Origin: a virus
IMG/VR virus record: IMGVR_UViG_3300025668_000745
Location: 20,644 to 84,643 of that record
Direction: 5' to 3' (one strand)
Length of the DNA stretch: 64,000 nucleotides
Shown here: one piece after another, positions 24,012-47,901 of the stretch
Position numbering within the stretch: position 1 is the first letter of the stretch
How the letters are laid out: every line of letters starts with the position of its first letter
Notes under the pieces: model-generated
The model's database searches: none
What the model was told of the DNA's origin: nothing
The model's input: the letters and a program-made list of their open reading frames with translations, nothing else
Position numbers and translations under genes: made by a program

Positions 24012-25094
24012 ATGTATAGATACGAAGACATCAAAGAAGTACACTTAGAAATTACGCAAAAGTGTCAAGCGGCCTGTCCTATGTGCGATCGTAACATGAA
24101 TGGCGGAGATGATAATCCTCATATTACAAATGCAGAACTTAGTTTAGAAGATGCAAAAAGAATGTTTAGTCCTGCTTTTATAAAGCAATTAAATGTTATG
24201 TATATGTGCGGCAACTTAGGAGATCCTATTGTTGCTAAAGATACGCTTGAAGTATTCAAATATTTCCGCGAACATAACGATAAGATATGGTTGAGCATGA
24301 ATACTAATGCTGGAGCCAAGAGTGCTGAATGGTGGACAGAACTTGCAGGAGTTATTGGTCGCAAGGGAGCAGTAATTTTTAGTGTAGACGGTTTAAAGGA
24401 TACAAATCATTTATATCGACAGAACGTTGTTTGGAATAATGTTGAACGTAACATGCGAGCATTTATTAATGCTGGAGGCAGAGCCCGTTGGGACTTCTTA
24501 ATTTTTGCACACAATGAACATCAAGTAGATGAAGCAGAAGCACTTGCTACTCAGTGGGGATGTGAAAAGTTTATCAAGAAAAAATCAGGTAGATTTATTA
24601 CAAGTGATATTAAACCTAAAACATCTCATCAAGCAATAAATCGTAAAGGGGCTGAAACACAAAACTTAGCACAGCCTAAAGATGAAAAGAATAAAAACAT
24701 AGCACTACTAAAACAAAAAGAAATTGAAAAGTCTTATGGTAGTATGAAAGAGTATTTAGATAAGTGCAGTATTACTTGTAAAGTTGCAAACCAAGGAAGT
24801 ATTTTTGTAACAGCAGAAGGACTTTTAATGCCGTGTTGTTGGACTGCTGGACGTATGTACAAATGGTGGCATGCAGATCCCCGTGTAGAACAGGTATGGG
24901 ATCATATAGATAATGCTGGCGGAAAACAAGGCATAAGTATTATAGACAATGACATTAAACACGTGGTTAATGGAAAATTAATAGATAGTATCACTGCAAG
25001 TTGGCAAAAAAATAGTATTGCTGACGGAAAACTTGGCGTTTGCGCTCAAAAATGCGGTAGTGAATTTGACCCGTATAAGGAGCAATTTGTATGA
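24012..25094 (+). CDS. Radical SAM protein with C-terminal SPASM/twitch-like cysteines, 360 aa
   Basis: The CX3CX2C motif is at C18, C22 and C25 (CQAACPMC), binding the SAM [4Fe-4S] cluster. The glycine motif is GNLGDP rather than GGEP, and FSVDGL lies near residue 123. The C-terminal third has KCSITCKVAN, MPCCW (C275/C276) and a final CAQKC, which fits an auxiliary Fe-S cluster. Family members modify peptides, sugars or other small molecules by radical abstraction. It lies next to SGNH genes and overlaps the next start by 4 bp. It resembles 25800-26820 and 34882-36108. Confidence 0.85.
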   Translation: MYRYEDIKEVHLEITQKCQAACPMCDRNMNGGDDNPHITNAELSLEDAKRMFSPAFIKQLNVMYMCGNLGDPIVAKDTLEVFKYFREHNDKIWLSMNTNAGAKSAEWWTELAGVIGRKGAVIFSVDGLKDTNHLYRQNVVWNNVERNMRAFINAGGRARWDFLIFAHNEHQVDEAEALATQWGCEKFIKKKSGRFITSDIKPKTSHQAINRKGAETQNLAQPKDEKNKNIALLKQKEIEKSYGSMKEYLDKCSITCKVANQGSIFVTAEGLLMPCCWTAGRMYKWWHADPRVEQVWDHIDNAGGKQGISIIDNDIKHVVNGKLIDSITASWQKNSIADGKLGVCAQKCGSEFDPYKEQFV

Positions 25095-25807
25095 TATACG
25101 TAGGCGGCGACAGCTATGCATATGGATCAGAATTATTAGATATATCAAATCGTTTTGGTGATATTGTATCAGATGCTATGGGAACAACAAATCAAAACGA
25201 TGCAATAGGCGGCGCAAGTAATCAAAGAATTTACCGTAAATTTTTTGAAGCGTTTGATCCTAATAAATTTTCACATGTAATTTTAGGATGGACTGGCCTA
25301 AACAGATTTGAACATTATTCTGTCTTTGATCAAGATTATGACGGTTATAGAAGAATAACTGCACATCGATTACTTCCTTCTAACAAACATGAAGATTACA
25401 TAGATGAAAAACTTAGAAAAAGAATCGCAAAATTGCGAGATGATGTAAAGGTATCTAAAGAAAATAAAGTATTATTGCAGTACATGGCTAATGTACGTAC
25501 TGACAGAGTTATACATGCTGAAATTTTAAATATGATACTGCAAGTACAAAGGATGTGTAAATATACTGACACAAAATTATGCATGTTTTTTGGAGTACAG
25601 AATAATATCATAAAATTCAATGAATTAATAACAGATCATTTAATGTACAATAGTGTAGACTGGAATGATACATGGCTTTATCAACCAGATTATTCTTTAC
25701 AGGAATGTATGAATGATTTAAAATTACCAATAGGCCCAGGGAAACACTTTTTAGAAGAAGGCCATCAAGTTGCTGCTGACAAAATATTGGAGCATTTTAG
25801 TGTCTGA
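25091..25807 (+). CDS. SGNH/GDSL-hydrolase-like protein, 238 aa
   Basis: A strong aaggag site precedes the ATG. MIYVGGDSYAYGSE gives block I with Ser8, and GGASNQR near residue 38 is a block II/III-like Gly-Asn element. The C-terminal GKHFLEEGHQVAADKIL holds the candidate catalytic His. Its closest relative here is the gene at 26822, which starts almost identically. It lies between two radical SAM genes, with 4- and 8-bp overlaps. Acyl-ester hydrolysis or transfer is the family role; the substrate is unknown. Confidence 0.7.
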   Translation: MIYVGGDSYAYGSELLDISNRFGDIVSDAMGTTNQNDAIGGASNQRIYRKFFEAFDPNKFSHVILGWTGLNRFEHYSVFDQDYDGYRRITAHRLLPSNKHEDYIDEKLRKRIAKLRDDVKVSKENKVLLQYMANVRTDRVIHAEILNMILQVQRMCKYTDTKLCMFFGVQNNIIKFNELITDHLMYNSVDWNDTWLYQPDYSLQECMNDLKLPIGPGKHFLEEGHQVAADKILEHFSV

Positions 25808-26435
25808 TAAATGTTTTCAACTTTCAATCTCAACGTATTGTCAAGCTAAATGTCGTAGTTGCTTACGTACCAATAGCGAAACAGGTGAGCCGGAAGATTG
25901 GCTTACGCCTACACATATGAGCGTAGAAGCAGTACAAAATTTAGTATCTGGCGATTATTTTAAAAAGAACAAACTGGGATATTTACTTCTTTGCGGAGAA
26001 TTAGGTGATCCAATGATGCATCCTAATATAGATAAAATTTTAGATATTACTCTTGCTGTTGTTCCTCGAGTAGAACTTTCGACAAACGGCGGCCTGCGTC
26101 AACCAGAATGGTATGCAAAGACAGCGCAAAAATATGGAAGTCGTATTCATATTAAATGGGCAATAGACGGCACTGACCATGAGACAAATTGGAAATATAG
26201 AGAAGGTGTTGACTATTATCGAGCAATGGATAATATGAAAGCATGGATTGAAAACGGTGGTAACGGTGATTGGCATTATTTAATTTTTGAGTGGAACTGG
26301 AAACAAGTAAAAACAGCTAAACAAATAGCTAAAGATATAGGGATTGAAATACTATTTAAAATAAACAACAGGCCGTTTGGGTTAATTGATCCACTTCATA
26401 AACGTAAAGTAATGGAGGAATTGACCAATGGCTAA
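25800..26435 (+). CDS. Radical SAM core protein (half-length, no auxiliary domain), 211 aa
   Basis: I chose GTG 25800, which overlaps the previous stop by 8 bp and follows ttggag; this is downstream of a longer open frame that would overlap more. CX3CX2C is at C14, C18 and C21 (CQAKCRSC). GELGDP replaces GGEP, and KWAIDGTDHETNWKYREGVD matches the full-length paralogues. The protein ends after the barrel, and the auxiliary cysteines are encoded by the next, overlapping ORF. The two presumably form a two-subunit enzyme. Confidence 0.8.
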   Translation: MSDKCFQLSISTYCQAKCRSCLRTNSETGEPEDWLTPTHMSVEAVQNLVSGDYFKKNKLGYLLLCGELGDPMMHPNIDKILDITLAVVPRVELSTNGGLRQPEWYAKTAQKYGSRIHIKWAIDGTDHETNWKYREGVDYYRAMDNMKAWIENGGNGDWHYLIFEWNWKQVKTAKQIAKDIGIEILFKINNRPFGLIDPLHKRKVMEELTNG

Positions 26436-26820
26436 ACAGCAAAAGATTATGTGTATGTTTCATGATGGCGCTCGAAGTGAATACGATATAACTGTTGACG
26501 GTAGAGTGTGGCCGTGTTGTAAATTTGTAAATGTAATAACAAAGATCGAAGCCGGATTGCAAAAAAAAGGTGCTCTTGACGGAGACGACTATTTTTTTAA
26601 ATTACAAAAAGATGACCCTAATTGGAATAGTTTAGAACATCATTCATTAGACGAAATATTAGATCATGATTATTTTTCTACATATGTAAACAATGAAGGA
26701 TGGGAAAGTGGAAACACCAGCGTATTGTGTAAAAAACGATGTACGGCAAATATGCACCAAGACGGAACTTATACATATGTAGCAGATACAAGTAACAAAA
26801 TACATAAGAGGATAAAATAA
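26428..26820 (+). CDS. Detached SPASM/twitch-like auxiliary Fe-S module, 130 aa
   Basis: The ATG overlaps the radical SAM core stop by 8 bp and has a strong ggagg site, arguing for a real independent start. Cysteines C9, C30/C31 (VWPCCKF), C101 and C105 match the C-terminal layout of the full-length proteins at 24012 and 34882 (C...PCC/QCC...CxxxC). The intervening phrase NWNSLEHHSLDEILDHDYF parallels NINHRTLSNILGHDFF in 34882-36108. It probably holds an auxiliary cluster and binds substrate as a partner of the preceding protein. Confidence 0.7.
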   Translation: MAKQQKIMCMFHDGARSEYDITVDGRVWPCCKFVNVITKIEAGLQKKGALDGDDYFFKLQKDDPNWNSLEHHSLDEILDHDYFSTYVNNEGWESGNTSVLCKKRCTANMHQDGTYTYVADTSNKIHKRIK

Positions 26821-26821
26821 A

Positions 26822-27571
26822 ATGATATATGTAGGCGGGGACAGTTATACATACGGAATTGAATTAAATAATCCTCTGAAAGGTCGATATTCTTTTTTGA
26901 TGCAACAAAAATTAAAAATGTCTGTAGTAAATGATTCTTGGGGCGGAGCAAGTAATGACAGGATAGCCAGAAAATTTTTAGAGTTTATGAGCGGTCATAA
27001 AGTAAAACCTGACTTGGTGTTTATTATGTGGGCTCCTATTACAAGATCAGAGCAGTATGCTCCTGAGGAGGATATGTGGGAGGAAAGAGACGGATTTAGA
27101 CAAGTAAGATCGCCTGATATTTTTTTACCTGCCAAAGGTAAGCCGACAAAAAAACAACTACACTGGCGCCGATCTCTTAGTCAGTTAAGTGCTACGCAAA
27201 AATGGTGGCTTAATATATTTGACCAAAAAGGAGCAATTGATAGTTATATTAGAAATATAATGATAGTTCAAACTGTTTGTCGTGCAGGAAATATACCGTT
27301 TATTATGACTAATTGTAATTCTTCAATGACACTCAAACAACTTGATGATTTTGTAAGTCGTAATAGAAAAGTAGAAAACTACACACAACAACGAGTAAAT
27401 CTCATTGATAGTAGTAACTGGTTATTTGATAAAACATGGTCTTTTGCTGAATGGGCAAAAGATAACGAATATCCAATAGGTCCACAACATCATCCGTTAG
27501 AGGAAGCACATATAAACTTTGCTAATATATTAACAGACAAAGTTAAGGAGAGATTAAATGCCTCCGATTAA
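26822..27571 (+). CDS. SGNH/GDSL-hydrolase-like protein, 249 aa
   Basis: MIYVGGDSYTYGIEL (Ser8) is block I, WGGASNDR near residues 39-46 is block II/III-like, and the C-terminal QHHPLEEAHINFANIL holds the candidate His. It is paralogous to 25091-25807. A Trp-rich insertion (about 85-135) distinguishes it. It follows the detached auxiliary module by one base and overlaps the next radical SAM gene by 14 bp. Confidence 0.7.
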   Translation: MIYVGGDSYTYGIELNNPLKGRYSFLMQQKLKMSVVNDSWGGASNDRIARKFLEFMSGHKVKPDLVFIMWAPITRSEQYAPEEDMWEERDGFRQVRSPDIFLPAKGKPTKKQLHWRRSLSQLSATQKWWLNIFDQKGAIDSYIRNIMIVQTVCRAGNIPFIMTNCNSSMTLKQLDDFVSRNRKVENYTQQRVNLIDSSNWLFDKTWSFAEWAKDNEYPIGPQHHPLEEAHINFANILTDKVKERLNASD

Positions 27572-28772
27572 ATGCTTCTTTGCAAAAAATGCAATTAATT
27601 ACAAGCCCAATGATAGAATAACTGCGTGTCCCAGAGGTCACGGATCTTTGGCTAAAATTAGTGACTCGGTAAAACCAAGTGATTTTTTAAATAACGAAGG
27701 ATTTAGAAATCTTAGGAAAACTTTACAAGATGGTGAATGGGATACATCGCATTGTGATACTTGTATGGAAAGAGAACAACGAAATATCACAAGTATGCGT
27801 CAAAACATTAACTCTGAATTTAATCCTAACACTAAAATTAATGCAAACGGCAAAGTGCGTTATAGAGAATTAAAATTTATAGAGCTTAGATTCAGTAATA
27901 CTTGTAACTTATGCTGTTTGCATTGTGGCCCCGATTACAGCAGTCAATGGGCATCACTTATAAAAAATAATCCCTTACAAAAAGATGACGTTGCTCATAA
28001 TATTAGAGGATGGGTTAATCCGAGTAAAAATACAAATTGGACAAGTAAGCAAGTAAGAGACTTTGTAGAAGACTTAAATAGAAACTTTCCAAATGTTGAA
28101 AGATTTGATATTGCCGGCGGCGAGCCATTGTATCAAAAACAATTTTGGCTATTTTTAGATTTAATAAAAGACCATCCTAACATAAAACGTATGACTATTA
28201 GTATTACTTCTAACTTTAATGTTGACATTAATTATAAAGATTTTGCTAAAAAACTTAATAAATTTAAATGTGCAAATGTGCGAATAAGTTTAGATGCTGG
28301 AAAAAACTTGTACGATTATTTTAGAGGCGGCAGCTGGGAAAAAGTAGAAGACAATATAAAACAGTTTAACAAAACCAGAAGGAATACACAATTAGAGGTT
28401 ACAAATACAATCGGAGTTCATCAAATTTTAGATCTTGAGGATGTAATTGTAAGTATGTTAGAACTTCCGGTTGACAAGTTACATCATAGTATTATACAAT
28501 ATCCTGACTATTTAAGTCCGCACGTATTTGAATCTAATAATCAAAGAGTCATTGATGAAATTGATAGGGCTAAAGCAGCAATTAATTGTTATAAAAGTGA
28601 TATAAAATACGTTAGCGCTCATAGAATGATTAAATCACTTGAAAAGGAGTATAGTAACTCAAAGTATAAATCTACTTTACTAAAAAGTTTTCAATACTAT
28701 ACTAATAAAATGGATAAAATTAAAAATACAAATTTTGAATCAGTGTTTGGATATAAAATAGATGAACTCTAA
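27558..28772 (+). CDS. Radical SAM protein, N-terminal twitch type, 404 aa
   Basis: An aaggagag site precedes the ATG. CX3CX2C is at C116, C120 and C123 (CNLCCLHC), with GGEPLY and a VRISLDAG strand further on. The N-terminal 75 residues correspond to the twitch-like domain of the following paralogues, but the usual FC..PW and CC are altered (KCFFAKN, ACPRG); CDTC is kept near residue 71. This is the twitch-domain radical SAM layout frequent in marine phages. The auxiliary cluster may be incomplete here. Confidence 0.82.
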   Translation: MPPIKCFFAKNAINYKPNDRITACPRGHGSLAKISDSVKPSDFLNNEGFRNLRKTLQDGEWDTSHCDTCMEREQRNITSMRQNINSEFNPNTKINANGKVRYRELKFIELRFSNTCNLCCLHCGPDYSSQWASLIKNNPLQKDDVAHNIRGWVNPSKNTNWTSKQVRDFVEDLNRNFPNVERFDIAGGEPLYQKQFWLFLDLIKDHPNIKRMTISITSNFNVDINYKDFAKKLNKFKCANVRISLDAGKNLYDYFRGGSWEKVEDNIKQFNKTRRNTQLEVTNTIGVHQILDLEDVIVSMLELPVDKLHHSIIQYPDYLSPHVFESNNQRVIDEIDRAKAAINCYKSDIKYVSAHRMIKSLEKEYSNSKYKSTLLKSFQYYTNKMDKIKNTNFESVFGYKIDEL

Positions 28773-29856
28773 CTATTGTGTCCTTCCTTTTGTTCATAGT
28801 TGTACAAATGTAGGCGGCAGAAATAAACCTTGCTGTAGATTTTCTGACCAAAGTTATAACGATCAAGTTAGTCCGTTAGATTATTTCAATGGAGATAAGA
28901 TAAATTTACTTAGAAATAAAATGCTTAACGGAGAAATAATAAAAGGATGCGACAAGTGTCACGCAGAAGAGTCGTTAGGTAAACAAAGTTATAGGCAACG
29001 GTCAAACAATCAATATAAAGAATATATTGACAAACAACCTACTTTAAAATTTATCGAAATTGGACTAAGCAATGCCTGTAATTTTGGATGTGTAACTTGT
29101 GATGCAGCATATAGCACAACTTGGTGGCAGGATATTGATGATGTAAATGCTATAGGCGCTAATAAAGCAAAACCTAATCAAAAAGTTGTATACACAGATA
29201 GTAAGTTTAATGACTTTTCTAATATAGATAGAATAAAAATATTAGGCGGCGAACCATTTATGGAGCCGAGAAACTTAGAGTTTTTAAAAAAATGTAATTT
29301 AAAAAATATCGAATTAGAACTTGTTACAAATGGTAGCATTTTGCCAAACAATGAGTGGCAAGAAATATTGCAACAACTAAAATATGTAAACTTAGATATA
29401 AGTTTAGACGGCCATGGTGAAATTGCCGAGTATGTGCGTTATGGAACAAACTGGAAAAAATTAGAATCTAATATTAATTGGTGGAAACAGTGGTGGAGCA
29501 ATAATAACAATATCACTATAAAAAGTCATTTTGTAGTTCATGCTCTAAATGCATTTGATTTACATAATTATTTAGAATGGCAAAAAAAGTTTAAATGGAA
29601 AACTACGTTTGATATACTACAAATGCCAGAATATTTAAATATTAAAATTCTGCCAACAGAAATGAAGAAAGAAATTTTAGAAAAGGTAGATATTAAGAAT
29701 GTTACAAACTATTTAACTAAGCATATGAACATTTTTGACAAGGACCAGTGTAGTCTGCTAACTAACTATGTTAGTGTTTTAAATAAAAAACGTAATCATG
29801 ACTTACAACAAATTAACAAACTAATGGATAGACTTAATGAAGCAACCAACAGATAG
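28762..29856 (+). CDS. Radical SAM protein, N-terminal twitch type, 364 aa
   Basis: The N-terminal domain has NYCVLPFVHS, KPCCRF and GCDKCHAEE (about residues 4-73), the candidate auxiliary Fe-S site. The core has C106, C110 and C113 (CNFGCVTC), LGGEPFM and DISLDGHGEIAEYVRYG. It is the shortest of the N-twitch group. It overlaps the previous gene by 11 bp and the next by 20 bp. Substrate unknown. Confidence 0.85.
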   Translation: MNSNYCVLPFVHSCTNVGGRNKPCCRFSDQSYNDQVSPLDYFNGDKINLLRNKMLNGEIIKGCDKCHAEESLGKQSYRQRSNNQYKEYIDKQPTLKFIEIGLSNACNFGCVTCDAAYSTTWWQDIDDVNAIGANKAKPNQKVVYTDSKFNDFSNIDRIKILGGEPFMEPRNLEFLKKCNLKNIELELVTNGSILPNNEWQEILQQLKYVNLDISLDGHGEIAEYVRYGTNWKKLESNINWWKQWWSNNNNITIKSHFVVHALNAFDLHNYLEWQKKFKWKTTFDILQMPEYLNIKILPTEMKKEILEKVDIKNVTNYLTKHMNIFDKDQCSLLTNYVSVLNKKRNHDLQQINKLMDRLNEATNR

Positions 29857-31081
29857 TAAAACTTTTTGTATTTTACCTTGGATACATGTGAATGGTAGTG
29901 TCGGCGGAGGTTATCGACCATGCTGTAATAGTGAAAGTTATTTTGATTTTAAAGACGACAACAACAGTATCAAACAAGCGTTTGAAAGCAACAGTATGGA
30001 CGAAATCCGCCAGTTTATGCAGCAGGAAAAAGAACATCCTGCATGTGAAGTTTGCTATTCAAGAGAGCGCAATAATGGATTAAGTTTTCGACATACATAC
30101 ACAGTTGATAAGTTTAAAGAATTTGTAGATCCGAATGCAGACGAAAAAATAAAATATTTAGACTTACGTTTTGATAACACTTGTAATCTTGCTTGTAGAA
30201 TGTGTGATCCAAGTAGTAGTAATCAGTTATATAGTAGTATCGAATGGTATAGGCAAGAGGATAAACCACTACCAGAACACTGGAAAGGGTTTACTAATTA
30301 TAAACAAAAAGATCAAACACAGATTAGTGCAAATCGTAAAGACTATGTAATAGAATTATTACCGGGTATAGAAGTTTTAAAAGTAACTGGCGGCGAACCT
30401 TTTATTAGCAAGGATTTTTTAGAAGTATTAGATCATGCAATTGAAAATGATTATGCAAAAAATATTAGATTGCTAATAACTACAAATGGCACTAAGTTTG
30501 TAAAGGCAGTTTTACAACGTCTTAAACATTTTAAGGGCGTTGACATGAATGTAAGTGTTGACGGAACCAGTCATGTGTATGACTATGTTAGATATCCTTT
30601 TACATGGAATAAATGGAATGATAGATTCTTAGAGTTTTTAAATTTTGCTGATGAAAACGAAATGTATAAAAACAAATACTTTCGAATTCGAACAAGTACA
30701 GTTGTTACAATGTACAATTGGTTGAATTGTCCAGAGCTATATACACATTTGAAATCTTATACTGAACAATTTCCGTGGTTAATTAATAAAAATTATATAC
30801 CACGTATAGATTTTAATTTAAATCTGCGCCCAAAAGATAGTGAAATGTCGGCCAAGTGGTTACCTAATAACATTTTAGATAAGGGTTTAGAGTTATGGCA
30901 GCACACTGATTGTAGACAATATAAAGAATTTGAAAAGTATGTAGTTAATGCAAAAAAACTAAGTTCAGACGATAAAAATCTTTATCGAGAAAAAATTAAA
31001 TACACTACTACGACATTAGACAAACAGCGGAAACAAACTTTTGCTGTATTAGATAGCGAGATTGTTAAATGGCTAAAATAG
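29837..31081 (+). CDS. Radical SAM protein, N-terminal twitch type, 414 aa
   Basis: TFCILPWIHVNG, RPCCN and ACEVCYSRE form the N-terminal auxiliary-cluster domain. The core has C116, C120 and C123 (CNLACRMC), TGGEPFI, and MNVSVDGTSHVYDYVRYP. It is a textbook member of the group, with all expected cysteines present. The start lies inside the previous gene (20-bp overlap) and the stop 13 bp inside the next. Confidence 0.87.
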   Translation: MKQPTDSKTFCILPWIHVNGSVGGGYRPCCNSESYFDFKDDNNSIKQAFESNSMDEIRQFMQQEKEHPACEVCYSRERNNGLSFRHTYTVDKFKEFVDPNADEKIKYLDLRFDNTCNLACRMCDPSSSNQLYSSIEWYRQEDKPLPEHWKGFTNYKQKDQTQISANRKDYVIELLPGIEVLKVTGGEPFISKDFLEVLDHAIENDYAKNIRLLITTNGTKFVKAVLQRLKHFKGVDMNVSVDGTSHVYDYVRYPFTWNKWNDRFLEFLNFADENEMYKNKYFRIRTSTVVTMYNWLNCPELYTHLKSYTEQFPWLINKNYIPRIDFNLNLRPKDSEMSAKWLPNNILDKGLELWQHTDCRQYKEFEKYVVNAKKLSSDDKNLYREKIKYTTTTLDKQRKQTFAVLDSEIVKWLK

Positions 31082-32472
31082 ATAAAAAAGAAGCAGAGCG
31101 TTTAGAAAGTTTAGTACCAAATAAAAAGTTTTGTCCTGCTCCCTTTATGCATACATATATAAATTCAAATAATAGAGGATATAAACTTTGCTGTATGAGT
31201 CATATTGTTGGTCGTTGGGATACTGAACAAAGTCTTAAAGAACAACACGAAGAATTTTGGACTGGTGAAACTATGCAAAGTATTCGCCAAGATTTTCTTG
31301 ATGGCAAAATGCCAGAATCGTGTGAGTGGTGGTGCGGTCGTTGGGAAAAAGAAGGTATATATCATAAGAGTGATAGATTAGATTTTATAAAACGCTACGA
31401 ATTAGAATTAAAAGCAGGATTTACAGAAATAAATTGGGACATAACTCATGGTACTCTTGAATTCCAGAAGCCAGTTGATATTGATTTACGACCAAGTAAA
31501 ATGTGTAATTTAAAATGTCGTAGCTGTAATAGTCTTTGGTCCGATAAGATTGAACAAGAAGTACTTGCTAATCCAGAAATACAAGGATGGAGCCATTGGG
31601 ACATGGTAACACAAAGCCCTAATGCTATGCGTAAAGCAAAACAGATTGATTACTCAGATCCTAAGTTTGATGTTGTTAGTAATTTAGACTTTTCAAATGT
31701 ATTTCGTTTAAAAATGAGCGGAGGGGAAACGTTAGTTGATCCAAGAGTTTATAATATTATGAAAAAACTTGTTGATAGTGGCGAAGCAAAGAATGTACGT
31801 CTTCATCAAATTACAAACTGTACCAGCCTTCCAAGCAGAATATACGATTTACTGGCACAGTTCAAAGAAGTTAGTTTCAATATTAGTGTAGATGGCGTAA
31901 AAGAAACAGATGAATTTTTACGTGACGGGACCAGATGGGATCGAAAACAAAAAGTATTTGATAAAATCTTTACATTACCTAATTTAAAATGGGCTGGCAT
32001 AATGCATGTCTTCCAACCTGTTAGCGCATTTCAAGTAAAGCGTAATGTAGAATGGTTTTTAGAAGGATACAGAAAATATACAAAACAACATAACGGTGTT
32101 ACTTTTAATCCTATTGTTGATCCTTGGTATCTAAGTGTAAGTTGGTTAGATGAAGATCATAAAGAGTACATAAGACAGCAAGTAAAAGAATGTATAACAG
32201 AATTTAATATGTGTAAACAAGAACAACAATGGTTTGATCTGTTACATAGTGAATTAGATAAGACACAAACTGACGAGCGTCGAAAAAGATATGCAAATGA
32301 TTATGTGCGAGCAGAGTTAGCATTGGATAAAATAAGAAATACAAGTTCTCTTACTATAGAGCCTATGCTACAAAGATATTTTGATAGATACGATCCAAAC
32401 AATGTTACACACGGTGACAAAACAGGAAGACCAGGAGCCCACTTTGATGGAAAACCAAAACCAACAGTCTAA
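31069..32472 (+). CDS. Radical SAM protein, N-terminal twitch type, 467 aa
   Basis: KFCPAPFMHTY and YKLCCMS mark the twitch-like domain, but the second cysteine pair is spaced CEWWC instead of CxxC. The core has C146, C150 and C153 (CNLKCRSC), and the glycine motif is SGGETL rather than GGEP. NISVDGVKETDEFLRDG follows. The altered spacings may reflect a different substrate or cluster ligation. The C-terminal 120 residues are helical and Trp-rich. Confidence 0.85.
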   Translation: MAKIDKKEAERLESLVPNKKFCPAPFMHTYINSNNRGYKLCCMSHIVGRWDTEQSLKEQHEEFWTGETMQSIRQDFLDGKMPESCEWWCGRWEKEGIYHKSDRLDFIKRYELELKAGFTEINWDITHGTLEFQKPVDIDLRPSKMCNLKCRSCNSLWSDKIEQEVLANPEIQGWSHWDMVTQSPNAMRKAKQIDYSDPKFDVVSNLDFSNVFRLKMSGGETLVDPRVYNIMKKLVDSGEAKNVRLHQITNCTSLPSRIYDLLAQFKEVSFNISVDGVKETDEFLRDGTRWDRKQKVFDKIFTLPNLKWAGIMHVFQPVSAFQVKRNVEWFLEGYRKYTKQHNGVTFNPIVDPWYLSVSWLDEDHKEYIRQQVKECITEFNMCKQEQQWFDLLHSELDKTQTDERRKRYANDYVRAELALDKIRNTSSLTIEPMLQRYFDRYDPNNVTHGDKTGRPGAHFDGKPKPTV

Positions 32473-39859: not shown

Positions 39860-39865
39860 ATTAAT

Positions 39866-40984
39866 ATGAGCGAAGATTTAAAATGGTCAAATTATGACTT
39901 TACTAAAATACCTTTTGACGACATTGTCTCTGTGGGGCAACGTACTCTGCTGTATCGTGATATATTTACTGTATCATGGTTACTTGGACGTTTCTGCAAC
40001 TACAAGTGTTCCTACTGTTGGCCCTATGCCCGAAGTGACCGTAAAGATCACAGACCTACCGAGCTCTGCTTGCGAACAGTGGATGAAATTAAACGTCAAG
40101 CCAGAGACAACGGCTTCAATTCTTTCCACTTCTCCTTGTCAGGAGGAGAGCCTACTTTCCATCCTGGATACTTGGACATACTAAAGCACTTAGCTGACGA
40201 TGTAGATAATACTAACTATACAAGTGTACACATGACATCAAACTGTAGTCGCAACATGCGTTGGTTTGAACAGTATGTAGAAGCAGTTAAACCATTTCAT
40301 AGAGCAAGCATTACAGCAAGCCTGCACACAGAACACTTAAACACAAAGGAGAAGATGCAGGACTTTGCAGATAAACTAATCCTGTGTCAAGAACACGATG
40401 TACAAGTTACAATTAATATGGTCATGGTGCCGGACTGGTTTGAACGTGATTGGGAAAATGCACTGTTCTTTCACGAACAAGGTATCAACGTTACTCTTAA
40501 ACCACAATCAGACCCTACTGCTTCTAAAGTTGTTGACGGATACAAACCGGAAGACCTAAAACGTTTACATAACGGTATGCCGCAACGTGCATATACAGAA
40601 AGCAAACGTAAGTGGGAAGGTAGACCAAAACCTGCCTTTCAAATTCCACAAGGAGCAGACGGGAAACTTGATGCAAGTGTGCCTTGGCATTTTCAAGTAG
40701 AGTTTAAAGACTCAACAGGTAAAAAATGGTTCATGGATCAAGCAGAAAGATTTAATGCATTTAATTTTAATAAGTTTGAAGGATGGCGATGTAATGCAGG
40801 GTATCAAGGAATTATTATACGTGAACCGGACGGTTCAGTAAAGCGTAGTTATAGCTGTCATGATACGCCTCTTGGTAACATAGAAACAGGATTTAAGTTA
40901 TTTGACAAACCTATGCCATGTATAACTAAATCCTGTGTAAGTAGTGCAGATAGTAAAATACCTAAGACTAAAATTATTTCTTAA
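39866..40984 (+). CDS. Radical SAM protein, classical type, with atypical base composition, 372 aa
   Basis: C44, C48 and C51 (CNYKCSYC) are followed by LSGGEPTFHPGYL. The C-terminus has WRCNAGYQGI, SYSCHD and PCITKSC, consistent with an auxiliary Fe-S site. It has its own promoter and no leader. The first 300 bases are visibly richer in G and C than the surrounding DNA, with different codon choice (for example CTG, GCC, TTC), suggesting separate ancestry or selection for strong expression. Its stop overlaps the convergent nitroreductase gene by 11 bp. Confidence 0.85.
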   Translation: MSEDLKWSNYDFTKIPFDDIVSVGQRTLLYRDIFTVSWLLGRFCNYKCSYCWPYARSDRKDHRPTELCLRTVDEIKRQARDNGFNSFHFSLSGGEPTFHPGYLDILKHLADDVDNTNYTSVHMTSNCSRNMRWFEQYVEAVKPFHRASITASLHTEHLNTKEKMQDFADKLILCQEHDVQVTINMVMVPDWFERDWENALFFHEQGINVTLKPQSDPTASKVVDGYKPEDLKRLHNGMPQRAYTESKRKWEGRPKPAFQIPQGADGKLDASVPWHFQVEFKDSTGKKWFMDQAERFNAFNFNKFEGWRCNAGYQGIIIREPDGSVKRSYSCHDTPLGNIETGFKLFDKPMPCITKSCVSSADSKIPKTKIIS

Positions 40985-41606
40985 ATACTACCGGAATTTC
41001 TTCTTTTATACGTCTTTCAATCTTTACATTTTCTGTATGATGCTCACGTCTTTGTCTTGTGCTATCTTTAAATCCGATACCCATTAAAAGTATACTTGGA
41101 TTATCAAACCCTAAAATTTCTTCAACTTCTGATTTATCGTAACATGCACAACACCCTGTTTGATAACCTAACATTGTAGCAATAACATTTAAATAGCCAG
41201 CAGCAATACCTACAGCCATTTCTCTATCACGTCTTAACATGTTGTTATCTGATTCGTCATTATTTTTAAACTTTTTGTTATATTGTGCAGACATATCATT
41301 TGCTTCAAATGCAACAAGTAAGTTTGCAAGTGTTTGTGGATTTGTACATTCTACTCTATCTCCTGTTTCAGGATCAGCATATCCTAATCCTAATGAATTG
41401 GCATGTACTTGTTCTATAATATTTCTGTCTGTAATAAAGTGGGCTTTGTAAAACGCAAAGTTTTGTTTGCTCGGACAGTTAGTAACAGCGTGTACTAAAA
41501 CATCAATATCCTCTTCTGGAATACTTTTACTAAGATCCCAATTTCGTTGTGTATGTTGGCTTTTGATTACTGATTTTTTAATCTCGTTGCGAAAGTCTAA
41601 TTCCAT
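40974..41606 (-). CDS. Nitroreductase-family FMN protein, 210 aa
   Basis: A good site (aaggag) precedes the ATG on the minus strand. The layout fits the nitroreductase fold: NCPSKQNFAFYKAHFI near residues 43-58 (FMN-binding Ser/Asn), GIAAGYLNVIATMLGYQTGC near 133-152, and ILLMGIGFKD near 171. Family members transfer hydride from NAD(P)H through FMN. In this setting it could reduce a pathway intermediate or a partner flavoprotein. It is one of only two minus-strand genes inside the accessory region. Confidence 0.72.
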   Translation of the reverse strand: MELDFRNEIKKSVIKSQHTQRNWDLSKSIPEEDIDVLVHAVTNCPSKQNFAFYKAHFITDRNIIEQVHANSLGLGYADPETGDRVECTNPQTLANLLVAFEANDMSAQYNKKFKNNDESDNNMLRRDREMAVGIAAGYLNVIATMLGYQTGCCACYDKSEVEEILGFDNPSILLMGIGFKDSTRQRREHHTENVKIERRIKEEIPVVFKK

Positions 41607-41626
41607 AATGAATACTCCTTGTACTA

Positions 41627-41635: not shown

Positions 41636-41690
41636 CAAATATGTATTATAACTAAACCGATATGCATAATTACTTATAAAGGAAGCAAAA

Positions 41691-42443: not shown

Positions 42444-42444
42444 T

Positions 42445-43152
42445 ATGCGTTCTGAAAGCCAAATCAACTTATTAAAATCACATCATTCAGATCCGTTTTC
42501 ATTATCTAATTTCCTTACATCGCAAGAGGTTGAGGATCTATTAGATTACTATTTTAATAATCAAGACAATGTTATTAAAAAAACAACAGGACCGAGTGTA
42601 CTAAAAATAAAAGATAACTTATTAGATAATATAATAAGCAGACTAAAATTACAAATAGGTGACTTTGATATAAGGTATGCACATTTCTTTGATGTAACCG
42701 GTCCGCATGTAATTCACAATGATGACGAATTTGATTATCCAGAATCGTATAAAGCATTTACAATACCGCTTAAAATATATGGTAATAGTGATGATGTAAA
42801 ATTAGTTATATATGATCAATATTACTACGGAGGCCCTGCTAAATTTTTTAATAATCAAGACACAAGTACTTGGAATGTGCATTATAATCCACCGCTTACT
42901 GATTATACTAATGTTGAAAATACAAATAACAGTGGTATATCAAAAACTGAAAAGGAAGAATATCTTACACACTTGGAAGATAAATGGTTGGAAGGGTTAA
43001 GCATCAAAAGTATGTTAGATTGGAAAATACAAAATGTTTTATGTTTTGACAGTTTACAATTACATTCGTCTACAGATTTTAATGCTAAAGGCATTGAACG
43101 AAAAATAGGATTAAGTATATTTACAGTTTTATCTGATCAAGCAAAAGACTAA
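42445..43152 (+). CDS. 2OG-Fe(II) oxygenase-like protein, 235 aa
   Basis: HVIHNDDEF supplies H91 and D93, FDSLQLHSS supplies H207, and the following ERKIGLSIFTV has the candidate 2OG-binding Arg219. A long loop (about 120-190) sits between the strands. Its 3' end overlaps the convergent radical SAM gene by 32 bp. Substrate unknown; the preceding oxygenase is a distant relative. Confidence 0.65.
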   Translation: MRSESQINLLKSHHSDPFSLSNFLTSQEVEDLLDYYFNNQDNVIKKTTGPSVLKIKDNLLDNIISRLKLQIGDFDIRYAHFFDVTGPHVIHNDDEFDYPESYKAFTIPLKIYGNSDDVKLVIYDQYYYGGPAKFFNNQDTSTWNVHYNPPLTDYTNVENTNNSGISKTEKEEYLTHLEDKWLEGLSIKSMLDWKIQNVLCFDSLQLHSSTDFNAKGIERKIGLSIFTVLSDQAKD

Positions 43153-44338
43153 CATCTAATTTTTTATTTTTGTAGTCGTTTTCTTTTATTAAGAATTTTT
43201 CTATATCGTTTGATGTATAAGATCCTGTTCCTATAAGACTCCTTAAACTTTTAAGCCAAATACATACATTATTCTTACATGCTTCTGCATGTTCGCCTTT
43301 AGAATTTAATACTATTTGTATTGCTTCGTCGACATATTTTCTAAATTCAATAGGTAAATTTGCTGGACTAAGAACTTTGGGAGTAGTCACCCAGTTATTA
43401 ATAAATCCAAATGGCACATCGACTTCAGTTAAATGATCGTAAACATATTGTATATATAATGGCAAGTGTTTAATACTAAACACATTCGGAGTCATTGCTA
43501 ATATTATATAACTTACTTTTTGGTTAATAAAAAAATTAAAATTCTTATCAAAGACATCCCAGTCAAGATGAAATCTAATATTTTCTGCTACACTACCCAT
43601 AGCTTCATTAGATAATCCAAATGACCATAGCCAATTTGTTCTATCGTTTTTAATTAGTTTTTCAATCTTATGTAATAGTTTGTCACTTGCGCCGCAGTTA
43701 GTAACTATGTGTATTCTAAACTTTCTATCTGCAAGTTTTTCTTCTAATGTATGCAAAAATTTAAAAAATTCTACACTTGCTAATGGCTCGCCCCCTAAGA
43801 TACGCAAATCTAAATATTTAGATCTATCTTTAGTTACAACGTCTAACCAATCTAAAAGAACATCAATATCTTTATTATTATGTTTTAAAAACTTTGCTTC
43901 TCCTCGTTCTTCAGCAATAATACTACTAAACGCTGAACTGCAATATAAACAACTTTGAGTACATGTATTATCAAATGTAAGACCAACAACTCTTAAATAA
44001 TCTAATTCAGGATTGGCTTTAATTTTACTATGTATTCTTGTATTACTTTTTACTTTGCGTTTAGATGTTCCTGAGTTCTTTTCAGCCATCCAGCATTCAT
44101 TACAAGCTGAGTGTTTTTCTTCATTTAAAAAGGCTAATTTTCGATCATGGTGTTCGGAGTTATTAGTAAAAAAGTCCAAAGTTAAATCTTTAGGAAACGA
44201 AACATCTTTGGAATAACAGCACCAAGATATAGATCGATCTCTAAGATTGATATCTACCTCTTCCCAAGGAAGTGAACAAAACATATCGTACTTGTGTATT
44301 GATTTTTGAGCAATATAGTCAGAGCTGGTCATAAACAT
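43121..44338 (-). CDS. Radical SAM protein, N-terminal twitch type, on the minus strand, 405 aa
   Basis: MFCSLPWEEVDI, SWCCYS (C40/C41) and ACNECWMAEK form the N-terminal domain. The core has C126, C130 and C133 (CTQSCLYC), LGGEPLA and HIVTNCG. It is the only radical SAM gene here in this orientation. The first ATG (44338) or the ATG two codons later may be the start; no ribosome site is visible for either. Only 25 bp separate it from the divergent aminotransferase gene. Confidence 0.83.
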   Translation of the reverse strand: MFMTSSDYIAQKSIHKYDMFCSLPWEEVDINLRDRSISWCCYSKDVSFPKDLTLDFFTNNSEHHDRKLAFLNEEKHSACNECWMAEKNSGTSKRKVKSNTRIHSKIKANPELDYLRVVGLTFDNTCTQSCLYCSSAFSSIIAEERGEAKFLKHNNKDIDVLLDWLDVVTKDRSKYLDLRILGGEPLASVEFFKFLHTLEEKLADRKFRIHIVTNCGASDKLLHKIEKLIKNDRTNWLWSFGLSNEAMGSVAENIRFHLDWDVFDKNFNFFINQKVSYIILAMTPNVFSIKHLPLYIQYVYDHLTEVDVPFGFINNWVTTPKVLSPANLPIEFRKYVDEAIQIVLNSKGEHAEACKNNVCIWLKSLRSLIGTGSYTSNDIEKFLIKENDYKNKKLDVSLLLDQIKL

Positions 44339-44349
44339 ATTTAGTACAC

Positions 44350-44358: not shown

Positions 44359-44363
44359 CCTAT

Positions 44364-45197
44364 ATGCACGAAACTGAATTAAGAAACATTATAAAGAATC
44401 CTTGGGTACAATGTCCACAAGTTAATAGCGTACAACACTTATTGAAGTCTGTCGAAGTTATTAATTTTGTAAGAGGCAGTGGTGAAGCATCTGCTCGGTT
44501 GGATTATTTAGAAACTTTATACAGAAAATGGGTAAGTGATATAATAGATTTACGTGATTTTAAGTATTGTTATTTTGTTAACGGTGTTACTGATGCAATT
44601 AATCAATGGGTAGCAACCGAAACAAGGACCTGGCAATATTTAAAAGGCGATTACGAATATGCTAAAATGATCGGCGGCGACGGATATTGTGTAGATGACA
44701 TTAATCCTGAACAGTTGTTATATATAAGCAACCCGGAATGTTCTACTGGCGACTTCATTAAACTTAAAGATATACCTAATCCTATAATATTAGATTGTGC
44801 ATATATTGGCAGTACCTTAAAACAACAAATGTCAGTGCCTAATACAACAGAACAAATTTGGTTTAGTTTTTCAAAAGGTTGGGGATTAGTTGGTCAACGT
44901 GCAGGGTTAGTTTTTACAAAACATCCTCATAAAAGTTTACATGTAATGAAACAAGTTGAAGCATGGAATTATACAAGTGTAGAAACAGCAATAGCTATTG
45001 TAGAAAACTATGATATAGACACTGTAGCAAGCGCATACAAGCCCGTACAGCAGCAGTTGTGTGAGAAGTATAACTTAGAGCCCAGTGATTGTTTTTTCAT
45101 TGCTAAGAGTACTGATAAGCGTTTTAAGATACGGCGTAGAAAAGAAGACATTGCTCGATTAGATTTGAGTTCTTTAATGGAGCACAGTAATGCATAA
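44364..45197 (+). CDS. Short fold-type-I PLP aminotransferase-like protein, 277 aa
   Basis: The pyridoxal-phosphate site is readable: YFVNGVTDAINQW near residues 70-82, LDCAYIGS with D144 and Y147, and WFSFSKGWGLVGQRAGLVF with the Schiff-base Lys171 and following Arg. Aspartate-aminotransferase relatives usually have 380-420 residues, so the small domain is much reduced. It probably transfers an amino group to a pathway intermediate. It overlaps the next gene by 8 bp and has no visible ribosome site. Confidence 0.7.
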   Translation: MHETELRNIIKNPWVQCPQVNSVQHLLKSVEVINFVRGSGEASARLDYLETLYRKWVSDIIDLRDFKYCYFVNGVTDAINQWVATETRTWQYLKGDYEYAKMIGGDGYCVDDINPEQLLYISNPECSTGDFIKLKDIPNPIILDCAYIGSTLKQQMSVPNTTEQIWFSFSKGWGLVGQRAGLVFTKHPHKSLHVMKQVEAWNYTSVETAIAIVENYDIDTVASAYKPVQQQLCEKYNLEPSDCFFIAKSTDKRFKIRRRKEDIARLDLSSLMEHSNA

Positions 45198-45828
45198 AAT
45201 TGTAGGGTTGTCGTTTAGTTATGCTGATAACAGTATGCAAAATAGAGGAATGTCTTTATTAGGAAAAGTTATTCCCTTTCATAAAACTTATACTTTAGCA
45301 GATTTTGATATACCCTTAGTAAAAACAAATAAACCAGACGGCGCAAGTCCTCAAGGTGTTAAGGATATGGTAGCAGCATTAGAAGAAGCAGATGCGATAG
45401 TTTTTGGAATATCAGAAATGATAGCTTATCCGTGCGCTTCATTTAAAAATTTTTGTGAATGGTTAGTTATAAATATTAACAACAATGATGATTTGACTAA
45501 AAGTTATTGTATCAGTCATAAGCCGTTAGTAACAACTACATTTACTCCAGGACCACATGCTGGAGATAGACATTGGGAAGTTTCCAACCAACTACTTTTC
45601 CAATTGAATTGTAACATTGAAAAAAATTATGTTTTTAGAGACGCTTGGGAAAACTTGTTGCCTAATAACATAGATTATATACAACAAGAAGCAAAAGAAA
45701 TGTTAGAGTTACTTTCAAAAAAATATAATGATAGCGGCATTGTTGTGCATGATAGAGTGCGCACAATGGGGAAATGGATGAATCAATACGAAGAATGGGA
45801 TAAAGAATGGACTTCTTCAGATCTGTAA
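45190..45828 (+). CDS. NAD(P)H-dependent FMN reductase-like flavoprotein, 212 aa
   Basis: A ggag site precedes the ATG. The flavodoxin-like start KIVGLSFSYADNSMQNRGMS, then FDIPLV and EADAIVFGISEMI and FKNFCEWL, matches NADPH-dependent FMN reductase proteins. It ends in MNQYEEWDKEW, a tail shared with its paralogue at 52686. It could supply reduced flavin or electrons to the radical SAM enzymes, which need a low-potential donor; that is inference. Confidence 0.68.
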   Translation: MHKIVGLSFSYADNSMQNRGMSLLGKVIPFHKTYTLADFDIPLVKTNKPDGASPQGVKDMVAALEEADAIVFGISEMIAYPCASFKNFCEWLVININNNDDLTKSYCISHKPLVTTTFTPGPHAGDRHWEVSNQLLFQLNCNIEKNYVFRDAWENLLPNNIDYIQQEAKEMLELLSKKYNDSGIVVHDRVRTMGKWMNQYEEWDKEWTSSDL

Positions 45829-46403
45829 AATTTAAAACTAATATAGACTTTTTCTATGATTGTGCAGAATATATTTCTGAAGATTCTACCTTTAACATAG
45901 ACGATAGTGTTTATATGTGTTGGACTGACGATAATAAAAAATTTATTCCAATACACAATTTTATAGATAAACTAAAAAATAAATTAAATTGTGAAATTAG
46001 TAGAAGTTGTTATACAGTTCAAAGAAGCAAAAAATCTAATTTGCCAATTCATATAGATAAAGATGATTCTATTATAGACAGATCTATTCATGGGAAAATA
46101 TATAGTTTAATTATACCTATTAAAGGTAGTGGCGTTACTAAGTTTTATAATTTGCACTCTAAAGATAACGGCCCTAACAGTATGGATATACACGAAAGAT
46201 ACAATCTATATATAGGAAATGATAATATCGAACAACAAGTGCAGATGCATAGTGCTGTAACAATTGAGCAACCTACAATTTTAAATATTAGCCAACCTCA
46301 TAGTGTTACTGTAGTTACTGCTCCGAGAATTACCTACCATTTAAAATTATTACAAGTTTCAGAACCTATAGATAAAATAGCGGAGATATTAAGTGAAATA
46401 TAA
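45807..46403 (+). CDS. 2OG-Fe(II) oxygenase-like protein, 198 aa
   Basis: NLPIHIDKD gives H82 and D84, ISQPHSV gives H165, and APRITYHLKL contains the candidate 2OG-binding Arg174 and closes the barrel. The size suits a minimal double-stranded beta-helix enzyme. The start lies 22 bp inside the flavoprotein gene. Substrate unknown. Confidence 0.65.
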   Translation: MDFFRSVKFKTNIDFFYDCAEYISEDSTFNIDDSVYMCWTDDNKKFIPIHNFIDKLKNKLNCEISRSCYTVQRSKKSNLPIHIDKDDSIIDRSIHGKIYSLIIPIKGSGVTKFYNLHSKDNGPNSMDIHERYNLYIGNDNIEQQVQMHSAVTIEQPTILNISQPHSVTVVTAPRITYHLKLLQVSEPIDKIAEILSEI

Positions 46404-47901
46404 CGCATTATTGTTAGCAGCAGTTCCAAGACAAAAATCATATTATGCCTCTAAAAACTTTGGTATACATCGTGCTGCTACAGAATTTCGAAATAATAAT
46501 ATAGATACTCAAGTTGTTCATTATTTTAATAGATTTAGTGATAATGAATTAGACAAAATGATAGATAAGTTTTGTAATGACCAAACATCAGTTGTTGGGT
46601 TCAATACAATGTTCTGGGAAAACTATGATCCTGTCGAAAAGCAGCATGTGTTAAAAAAAGCAAAATATATTTGTAATGTTATAAAACAAAAGTATCCCAA
46701 TACAAAACTTATTGCCGGCGGCCCCAGTTGTAGAATATTTTTAAAAGAAGAATTTAACAATTTGATAGATGCAATTTTTGAAGGATTCAGTGAAAACGAC
46801 TTTATTCCGTACATACAAAATAAAATAATTGTACCTTCTAAAACTTACTATAACATTGACGTATATAACAATATACACGGATCGTTTAATTTTACTAACA
46901 GCAATACAATATACCAAAAAAATGATTTTCTCATGCCGTCAGAAACTCCAACATTAGAAGTTGGACGAGGATGTATTTTTAAGTGTAAATTTTGTGCATT
47001 TGCACTTAATGGTAAGAAAAAGTTAGACTATATAAAAGATCCAAAAGTATTAGAAGAAGAATTATTGTATAATTATGAAAATTTTGGATTTACTAATTAC
47101 ATATTAAGTGACGATACATTTAATGATAGTACATATAAAATAGAATTATTACATAAAGTGTTTACTAATCTACCTTTTGATATAAAGTTTAGTTCTTATT
47201 TAAGATTAGATTTACTAAATGCACATCGAGAACAAATACCGTTATTAAAAGAGATGGGACTAATAGGTGCGTTTTTTGGTATAGAAAGTTTTGATAAGAA
47301 AGCCAGCAGCTTAATTGGAAAGGGTATGGATCCTGACATTGCAAAACAAATGTTATTAGATTTAAAAAATACTCACTGGGGCAATCGAATAAAAATTGGT
47401 GTTGGATTGATAACTGGATTACCGTATGAAACATACGAATCGCATGATCGAACTATGGAGTGGATTTTAGATGAAAGTAATACAGTTGACCAAGTTGTGC
47501 CTTTTCCGTTAGGTGTTACTAATCCTAATAATGCAAAACCGCAACCTTGGGAAAGTGAATTTCAAATTAATGCAGAAAAATATGGGTTCAGTTGGCCAAA
47601 CAATGATAGTATACGATGGCATAATAGTATTGGACCAGTAAAAACTTTAGACGAAGCTGAAAGACTATACGAACTTTATTCAGAATGTGTATCTAAAACA
47701 GCTCGATGGAAGCAAGGAGGATTTAATTTACTCAAAGCATATCCGTTAGTAAGTTCTCAAAAAAATGCACCAACCATAGATCAACTTCTTGATATGAATC
47801 GATATGCCTATACTAAGTACATTAAATTAATTGAACAACAGCCTGAAATAGAATTCAATTATGTAAATTCTTACAAAAAGGAAATTTTAAATGCTTTATA
47901 A
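46393..47901 (+). CDS. Radical SAM protein with B12-binding-like N-terminal domain, 502 aa
   Basis: The start is GTG 46393, behind cggag, with an 11-bp overlap. Residues 1-140 look like a cobalamin-binding-type Rossmann domain (ALLLAAVP, SVVGFNTM, TKLIAGGPSC), but I see no DxHxxG, so cobalamin binding is uncertain. The radical SAM core has C194, C198 and C201 (CIFKCKFC) and Elp3-like strands (FFGIESFDKKASSLIGKGM, GLITGLPYET). Related enzymes perform radical methylations and rearrangements. It is unlike the other fourteen radical SAM proteins here. Confidence 0.83.
   Translation: MKYNALLLAAVPRQKSYYASKNFGIHRAATEFRNNNIDTQVVHYFNRFSDNELDKMIDKFCNDQTSVVGFNTMFWENYDPVEKQHVLKKAKYICNVIKQKYPNTKLIAGGPSCRIFLKEEFNNLIDAIFEGFSENDFIPYIQNKIIVPSKTYYNIDVYNNIHGSFNFTNSNTIYQKNDFLMPSETPTLEVGRGCIFKCKFCAFALNGKKKLDYIKDPKVLEEELLYNYENFGFTNYILSDDTFNDSTYKIELLHKVFTNLPFDIKFSSYLRLDLLNAHREQIPLLKEMGLIGAFFGIESFDKKASSLIGKGMDPDIAKQMLLDLKNTHWGNRIKIGVGLITGLPYETYESHDRTMEWILDESNTVDQVVPFPLGVTNPNNAKPQPWESEFQINAEKYGFSWPNNDSIRWHNSIGPVKTLDEAERLYELYSECVSKTARWKQGGFNLLKAYPLVSSQKNAPTIDQLLDMNRYAYTKYIKLIEQQPEIEFNYVNSYKKEILNAL

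Follow-up and report, generated by a model that had tools for sequence, protein, structure and literature searches.

A phage island of fifteen radical SAM genes with three members in a fixed frame and a variable repertoire around them

Introduction

Why should a phage hold fifteen radical S-adenosylmethionine (rSAM) genes within 24 kb? The question is raised by a stretch of 64,000 bases, here called the window, which comprises bases 20644-84643 of the 84,643-base IMG/VR virus contig IMGVR_UViG_3300025668_000745. Between 24012 and 47901, 15 open reading frames (ORFs) each contain one CX3CX2C motif, at the places given in a preliminary description of this DNA. As all 15 also match NCBIfam radical SAM profiles (E<=1e-6), the motif is not there by chance. 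ORF starts are given as the first possible start, and four rSAM starts therefore lie 21-66 bases from the coordinates in that description.

The preliminary description had regarded the 15 genes as a real biosynthetic or tailoring system under selection. Selection is supported for 14 of the 15 genes, and a real system for a smaller unit. Three genes, R0, R1 and R2, form a fixed frame in related phages and also occur together in some Bdellovibrionota, which argues for a real, uncharacterised biosynthesis system rather than random cargo. We read the island as a core-plus-variable biosynthesis locus beside the tail fibre genes of a large T4-like phage, most likely serving surface-glycan decoration, and give this reading a probability of a little over 0.4.

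Results

A scan of IMG/VR with R1 (36109) as query gave 297 relatives, the closest 80 of which were kept as loci (R1 identity 84-99%). Twenty-one of the kept records were searched whole, with 8-19 PF04055 matches per record, and 13 of the 21 were read, seven in full and six in part. Contig comparisons cover the window and 13 related contigs; two of the related contigs exceed 200 kb, and one, G021, is a near copy of the window (85-100% identity per gene). A close relative is a protein of at least 48% identity, and the same 48% defines rSAM families, which were counted in 13 contigs with G021 left out. R1 is present in every compared contig because it was the search query, while R0 and R2 were not queries.

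R0, R1 and R2 keep one order and one strand in all 14 viral contigs, the window counted. Genes for a 75-aa protein, a glycosyltransferase-2-like (GT2-like) protein and a methyltransferase-like protein are usually nearby, while the gaps differ between phages. The R0-R1 gap measures 754-11,014 bp and holds 0-8 further profile-confirmed rSAM genes, and the R1-R2 gap measures 2,350-17,984 bp and holds 2-9. Identity to the window in the 12 contigs beyond G021 is 60-91% for R0, 83-91% for R1 and 79-90% for R2; conservation of R1 and R2 thus equals or exceeds that of flanking phage genes where these were found (70-81% for the protein at 10342, 74-83% for the ATPase at 59828). Among the 66 loci with a complete 10-kb upstream flank, 65 have R0 upstream of R1 and on its strand, and the single miss is L001, the G021 record, where R0 sits 11 kb upstream, just outside the flank. 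Of 42 loci whose downstream flank is complete, 27 have R2 within 10 kb, and of 20 records searched whole, 18 contain it; the other two are records of 28 kb and 35 kb.

A search of 50,697 phage records, from which near-identical records of the window were possibly excluded, gave only matches of 21-25% identity to R0, R1 and R2. Those of R2 are confined to two records of Campylobacter phage CP21 (HE815464.1, 18117-18677; E 5e-6, 25% over 55% of the R2 length), annotated as radical SAM. In Vibrio phage K566 (L251, 155566-168756 of a 255-kb record), four consecutive genes include three annotated as radical SAM, the first of them with 21% identity to R1.

The remaining repertoire is highly variable. 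Profile-confirmed rSAM ORFs, i.e., motif-bearing ORFs that also match a profile built from the 15 window cores, number 161 in the 13 contigs and sort into 88 families; 67 families occur in a single contig, and the three core families in all 13. By motif only, 179 ORFs in 103 families are counted, some of which are not rSAMs: at least four of the 18 ORFs dropped by the profile look like other proteins, and most of the others have 470-650 aa. Since PF04055 finds some of these longer ORFs, 161 is a low count. Only one profile hit lacks the motif, against the 161 that have it, and among 14 motif-less ORFs that BLAST found to resemble motif-bearing ones, 11 look by eye like PP-loop proteins and one represents a SPASM half.

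The notion of the fifteen as one set is not supported by this comparison. Beyond G021, eleven of the 15 have no close relative in any of the 12 contigs, 37508 has one in three, and only the core three are kept in all 12. The preliminary description had named degradation or absence in related phages, with no shared gene order, as the mark of neutral accumulation, and on this point the result is divided between the majority without close relatives and the retained frame. In the other contigs, too, most rSAM genes are intact, and the turnover thus proceeds by exchange and not by decay. A cassette of eight families (R145, g146-g150, R151, R152) stands together in G013 and, slightly rearranged, in G004. 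One variable member, an 830-aa rSAM protein (L120:17355-19847 in G017, minus strand), is probably an rSAM/PP-loop fusion, as its BLAST partners include stand-alone PP-loop (QueC-like) proteins.

Selection on 14 of the 15 window genes is purifying, with ratios of nonsynonymous to synonymous substitution rates (dN/dS) of 0.00-0.22 against G021, although the single ratios are rough because several dS values are about 0.01. The exception is 38796 (dN/dS 1.14, dS 0.043), in which the few changes are spread along the protein and the cysteines are kept. Against five more distant contigs, R1 has a dN/dS of 0.03-0.09 at dS 1.4-2.8; for R0 and R2, dS is infinite in some such pairs. Three other genes exceed all rSAM genes except 38796 when compared with G021: 22484-23158 (0.60), 23379-24011 (0.88) and 55173-56933 (0.50). 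The first two lie near R0 and are SGNH-like, 22484 weakly by Pfam and 23379 by eye, and the third is fibre-like.

The proteins differ in architecture. NF033640 (N_Twi_rSAM, curated cut-off 170 bits), a family whose name implies no function, is passed by seven of the 15 (27558, 28762, 29837, 31069, 32447, 36109 and 37508) and not reached by the other eight; 43121 is the nearest miss at 162.8 bits, and R0 and R2 score 43.9 and 43.8 bits. PF04055 is above its cut-off in all three window rSAMs scanned with Pfam (34882, 38796 and 46393). No window rSAM reaches the prokaryotic viperin profile NF038283 (cut-off 180 bits; best 28762, 51.3 bits). From 27558 to 40984, eleven of the ORFs follow one another head to tail; their ends overlap, touch or, once, lie 35 bases apart.

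The preliminary description had distinguished four architectures, and the cysteine patterns fit them: eight N-twitch-like patterns of the C..CC..CxxC type ahead of the core (27558 without the CC pair), SPASM-like C-termini in 24012 and 34882, cysteine-rich tails in 33699, 38823 and 39866, and one B12-type layout in 46393. Two assignments need revision. The motif DxHxxG, the B12 motif of cobalamin-dependent rSAMs, was not found in 46393, which we therefore leave outside that subfamily; its best profile is TIGR04479, at 60.5 bits against a cut-off of 600. The other case, 25770-26435, is not a whole enzyme but the catalytic part only, and its seeming SPASM part is the next, overlapping ORF (26428-26820).

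Such split rSAMs were sought elsewhere as a catalytic ORF without C-terminal domain, overlapped by a next ORF with CC and at least four cysteines. The scan produced 11 rows, among them two or more pairs of near copies; viral contigs or loci account for nine rows, and Pelagibacter phage Mosig and a 5.8-kb contig binned as Planctomycetota for one each. The second ORFs have 92-160 aa, and SPASM-domain homology was checked for part of them. The split family of G018 (R20) has fused members in other contigs. Frameshifting was rejected as a general cause, as the overlaps measure 1-32 nt in the scan and the second ORFs fall in both other frames (8 rows vs 3). We take the overlap to couple the translation of two subunits, which would act together.

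The gene for the 75-aa protein upstream of R0, a new detail that the preliminary description does not mention, is absent only from G010 among the 14 contigs and shows 61-77% identity to a query in the 11 contigs other than the two query copies. It is not universal, because seven loci lack it and the upstream flank is complete in three of these, namely L025, L035 and L036 (the G010 record). Among loci from bacterial assemblies, only L145, L151 and L153 have it, and their gene content is phage-like. The protein has no PHROG match, and its best PDB match is a designed protein (E 0.012).

The search for cellular relatives used an alignment of proteins related to R1 and 37508 on contigs of 84,980 species and gave 153 relatives; the best 80 were kept and correspond to 75 loci. 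Loci with R1 above 50% identity are titled as Bdellovibrionota groups, except L148, titled 'bacterium' yet of the same phylum in our genome sample, and L145, L146, L151, L153, L154, L156 and L176, which belong to other bins, mostly with phage-like arrays. Bdellovibrionota is the phylum of the best-known bacterial predators, to which the carriers of the trio are thus related. The sample comprised 290 genomes of the phylum to which G032 belongs, the Bdellovibrionia-titled genome that contains L150. R1 orthologues (E<=1e-120) occur in 15 of the 290, at 18 places and 51-63% identity. Across 15 Bdellovibrionota R1 loci, R2 is found in 15, R0 in 11 (at least 43% identity), a GT17-type gene in nine and an MT13-type gene in seven. 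The trio stands together again here, which supports the earlier claim of a real system. Loci L203, L150 and L148 are chromosomal, as they lie in contigs of 328-937 kb.

These loci are themselves rich in rSAM genes. By motif, 75 of 263 ORFs are rSAMs, against 1 of 232 in 14 control stretches of the same genomes; by motif and profile, the figures are 70 of 263 and 1 of 232. Eight such genomes have 10-28 NF033640 matches each, 4-13 of them over the cut-off, which is passed in none of 14 control genomes. GT2 (PF00535) was matched by 10 of the 140 non-rSAM neighbours sampled, compared with no more than 1 of 140 control genes. The 75-aa protein has no match in the Bdellovibrionota loci, the 159 short ORFs in their gaps include no family present in at least two of 15 loci, and no split rSAM was found in those scanned. 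Near the rSAM arrays of L147, L148, L150 and L174 we noted, by eye, pairs of a protein of about 160 aa and an HTTM-like membrane protein.

In the R1 tree, with the R26 paralogue as a long-branched root, the phages are nested within Bdellovibrionota. In the R2 tree, Bdellovibrionota lies inside the phages (82/94 support) with a very long outgroup branch, and in the R0 tree the phages and three phage-like contigs from genome bins form one clade. The R1 and R2 trees thus seem to disagree on the direction of transfer between phages and Bdellovibrionota.

Searches of PDB sequences with R0, R1, R2, the GT17 protein, two MT13 proteins and the small ORF gave weak matches at best; the nearest to R1 is the peptide maturase SkfB (E 0.0057). 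Foldseek neighbours were SkfB, TsrM and anSME for R1 (best E 0.0048), and BlsE, viperin and TigE for R2. As the AlphaFold2 models are poor (mean pLDDT 54.7 for R1 and 53.8 for R2), these neighbours are weak hints.

Table 1. Genes of the island and its left border, with positions in the window
Feature	Position	Strand	Basis
Tail fibre/virion structural genes, left border of island	10959..17368	+	PHROGs tail/virion structural for 10959, 12974, 14737; none for 16316
Two ORFs (17761, 18585), glycosyltransferase-like by eye	17761..19439	+	Hits in 13/13 contigs; no Pfam match
Glycosyltransferase-2-like (GT17 type)	19985..21601	+	PF00535 23.2 bits (cut-off 23.3); hits in 13/13 contigs
Methyltransferase-like (MT13 type)	21585..22484	+	Hits in 13/13 contigs; 28% to Mosig_00090 ('putative methyltransferase'); no Pfam match
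Conserved 75-aa small protein upstream of R0	23155..23382	+	13/14 contigs, 73/80 IMG/VR loci
R0, core SPASM-type rSAM	24012..25094	+	14/14 contigs; Cys pattern
SGNH-like protein between rSAM genes, by eye	25091..25807	+	No Pfam match
Split rSAM, catalytic half	25770..26435	+	Motif, profile; adjoining SPASM-like ORF
Split rSAM, SPASM-like half	26428..26820	+	Start overlaps catalytic-half stop by 8 nt (ATGGCTAA)
SGNH/GDSL-like protein between rSAM genes	26822..27571	+	PF19547 E 1.4e-4, PF13472 E 3e-4, both below cut-off
Five variable N-twitch rSAMs (27558, 28762, 29837, 31069, 32447)	27558..33706	+	NF033640 225.8-257.8 bits
Variable rSAM, Cys-rich tail	33678..34889	+	Profile, Cys pattern
Variable rSAM, SPASM-like	34882..36108	+	PF04055 40.1 bits; Cys pattern
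R1, core N-twitch rSAM	36109..37515	+	NF033640 418 bits
Variable N-twitch rSAM (R26 family)	37508..38830	+	NF033640 373.2 bits; 5/14 contigs
Variable rSAM, Cys-rich tail	38796..39830	+	PF04055 44.8 bits
R2, core rSAM, Cys-rich C-terminus	39866..40984	+	Contig comparison; Cys pattern
Nitroreductase	40974..41606	-	PF00881 34.7 bits
Variable N-twitch-like rSAM, opposite strand	43121..44338	-	NF033640 162.8 bits, below cut-off
Aminotransferase-like	44364..45197	+	33% to Mosig_00079; no Pfam match
FMN reductase family	45190..45828	+	PF03358; 34% to Mosig_00078
B12-type-like rSAM without DxHxxG	46393..47901	+	PF04055 52.1 bits
Peroxiredoxin	47891..48298	+	PF08534; 44% to Mosig_00077
TauD-type dioxygenase	49136..50059	+	PF02668
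Asp/Arg hydroxylase family	50807..51418	+	PF05118; 75% to Mosig_00072
TauD-type dioxygenase	51399..52187	+	PF02668; 64% to Mosig_00075
FMN reductase family	52686..53324	+	PF03358; 40% to Mosig_00078
Methyltransferase	53273..53968	+	PF08241 above cut-off; 46% to Mosig_00074
Fatty acid desaturase family	54496..55131	-	PF00487; 75% to Mosig_00080

Discussion

In the glycan reading, R0, R1 and R2 would build or prime a common scaffold by SAM-derived radical chemistry, which the variable enzymes (rSAMs, 2-oxoglutarate (2OG) oxygenases, nitroreductases, PP-loop, SGNH and pyridoxal phosphate enzymes, and desaturases) would decorate differently in each phage. Less certainly, the scaffold may be a surface-exposed glycan or glycoconjugate on the envelope of the infected host or on the virion fibres, and its turnover might be driven by host recognition and the exclusion of rivals. 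The three-enzyme core in Bdellovibrionota chromosomes would serve a comparable surface structure. The fixed frame, the turnover of families, purifying selection, the Bdellovibrionota trio near GT2 genes, the border with fibre genes and the published pelagimyophage cluster discussed below all support this reading.

Several observations weigh against it. GT2 matches at most one of 148 phage neighbours (GT17 copies were largely left out of these), so the evidence for a glycan comes mainly from the bacterial loci. Identification of the GT17 protein as a glycosyltransferase is borderline, and MT13 gives no Pfam match. SPASM and twitch enzymes of known function act mostly on peptides, and the conserved 75-aa ORF could be a peptide substrate. 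Finally, all contigs were found through R1, so that its presence is by construction.

A more tentative reading is that large phages and Bdellovibrionota might share a combinatorial radical assembly line, in which three fixed rSAMs and an exchangeable repertoire would make a lineage-specific contact surface molecule. Some rSAMs would work with a separate SPASM subunit, and diversification would come from enzyme swapping rather than adhesin mutation.

The best surviving alternative, possible but on balance doubtful, is that the rSAMs modify either the 75-aa protein or the tail fibres encoded nearby, as in ribosomally synthesised and post-translationally modified peptides or as fibre modification. 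The SPASM and twitch architectures, the conserved ORF upstream of R0 and the adjoining fibre genes would suit such tailoring, as would the proximity of R1 to SkfB in sequence and, weakly, to SkfB and anSME among the first fold neighbours. However, the 75-aa ORF is conserved over its full length while the enzymes vary, unlike precursors with a leader and a variable core. Neither this ORF nor another common short ORF was found with the trio in the Bdellovibrionota loci, and intergenic gaps make up only 0.3-2.5% of the phage islands.

Auxiliary metabolism, in which the genes would support Fe-S or redox metabolism of the host as Nishimura et al. (2017, PMC5332604) proposed for rSAM-rich T4-like genomes, is an unlikely account of the island. 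The redox enzymes within the island fit it, as does the T4-like genome described in the section concerned, which carries 12 rSAM genes together with one for an Fe-S carrier; this account leaves the fixed frame, the turnover of paralogues, the fibre neighbourhood and the Bdellovibrionota trio unexplained. That mobile cargo accumulated neutrally in a hypervariable region is very unlikely. The eleven genes without close relative outside G021 among the contigs compared, and the dN/dS of 38796, are what it would predict, but it is contradicted by the dN/dS of at most 0.22 in the other 14 genes, the frame fixed in 14 of 14 contigs and the near absence of motif-less profile hits, most motif-less BLAST relatives being PP-loop-like. 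Least probable is hypermodification of phage DNA (7-deazaguanine or thymidine type), which QueC-like PP-loop proteins in 3 of 148 neighbours and a weak QueE-like PHROG match of R2 (E 5e-7) might suggest, but against which the trio in bacterial chromosomes speaks, as do PTPS/QueD (PF01242) and TGT (PF01702) in 0 of 8 records each and a thymidylate synthase family in 1 of 8, although these absences are no proof since the eight records may be fragments.

Both rSAM-rich T4-like marine phages and rSAM cassettes in a host recognition cluster have been published before (PMC5332604, PMC7029224). The marine, 183-kb environmental genome TARA_ERS488813_N000010 (Nishimura et al., 2017, PMC5332604) is described as T4-like and rich in rSAMs, like the window phage; a core frame, gene order, cellular relatives and a product are not discussed in the section concerned. 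For pelagimyophages, passages of Zaragoza-Solas et al. (2020, PMC7029224) report a host recognition cluster that is hypervariable and contains tail fibres and glycosyltransferases along with rSAM cassettes, which vary between two similar genomes; the R0-R1-R2 frame is not mentioned in these passages. The window island is likewise hypervariable and beside tail fibres. The pelagimyophage cluster lies between VrlC and gp14; the window has a 3439-aa virion protein (phrog_10938) on the left, and a search with VrlC of Mosig gave no match in the contigs. Pelagimyophages infect SAR11, but the terminase of the window relative G001 (52%) and the window exonuclease (49%) are nearest, among phage records, to Pseudomonas jumbo phages of the PA5oct group (284-288 kb in the terminase comparison). 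According to the passages concerned, rSAM genes are prevalent in Tasman Sea viromes (PMC7150976), and an ahbD-like rSAM auxiliary gene was counted 261 times in Baltic viruses (PMC9301287). In the open-licence PMC literature, judged by titles and passages, we found no report on the R0-R1-R2 frame, on its occurrence in both phages and Bdellovibrionota, or on rSAM/SPASM pairs encoded as split genes.

The Bdellovibrionota loci (L147, L203, L150) resemble the window in having the trio, further rSAMs and in part GT17/MT13-like genes. They differ from the phage islands in being, in several cases, chromosomal, in giving no match to the small ORF and no split rSAM in the scan, and in being richer in GT2 than their controls.

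Together with the 85 or more other rSAM families of 13 contigs, the core is a large, testable reservoir of unfamiliar chemistry, and the fixed frame tells which three enzymes deserve study first.

Accessory genes and additional observations

For the accessory genes, Pelagibacter phage Mosig EXVC030M (MT647606.1, 141 kb), a cultured SAR11 phage, offers an experimental system, though passages on its isolation report an impure culture with a second phage present (PMC7892664). Genes of the window segment 44364-55131, in the right half of the island, have counterparts in Mosig with up to 75% identity, which lie between VrlC, at the other end of that region, and the fibre genes they adjoin. Mosig also carries a split rSAM but has no orthologue of the core: R0 finds Mosig_00084 (24% over half the length), and R1 and R2 have no match. 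The Mosig link suggests that the window phage may infect SAR11, or a companion of it, and live in a marine setting. Judging from its relatives and the literature, the window phage is probably marine.

Among the 148 hand-picked phage neighbours are 11 Asp/Arg hydroxylases and seven nitroreductases, with three each of desaturases, 2OG oxygenases, methyltransferases, QueC-like PP-loop proteins and DUF6071 proteins. GT17-type proteins range from about 300 to more than 1,100 aa (e.g., L104:9430-12813 and L121:9112-12444), and the window copy (19985) looks by eye like two tandem copies. In G003, the terminase match (C1:173896-175209) continues across three TAG codons, which hints at amber recoding in this phage.

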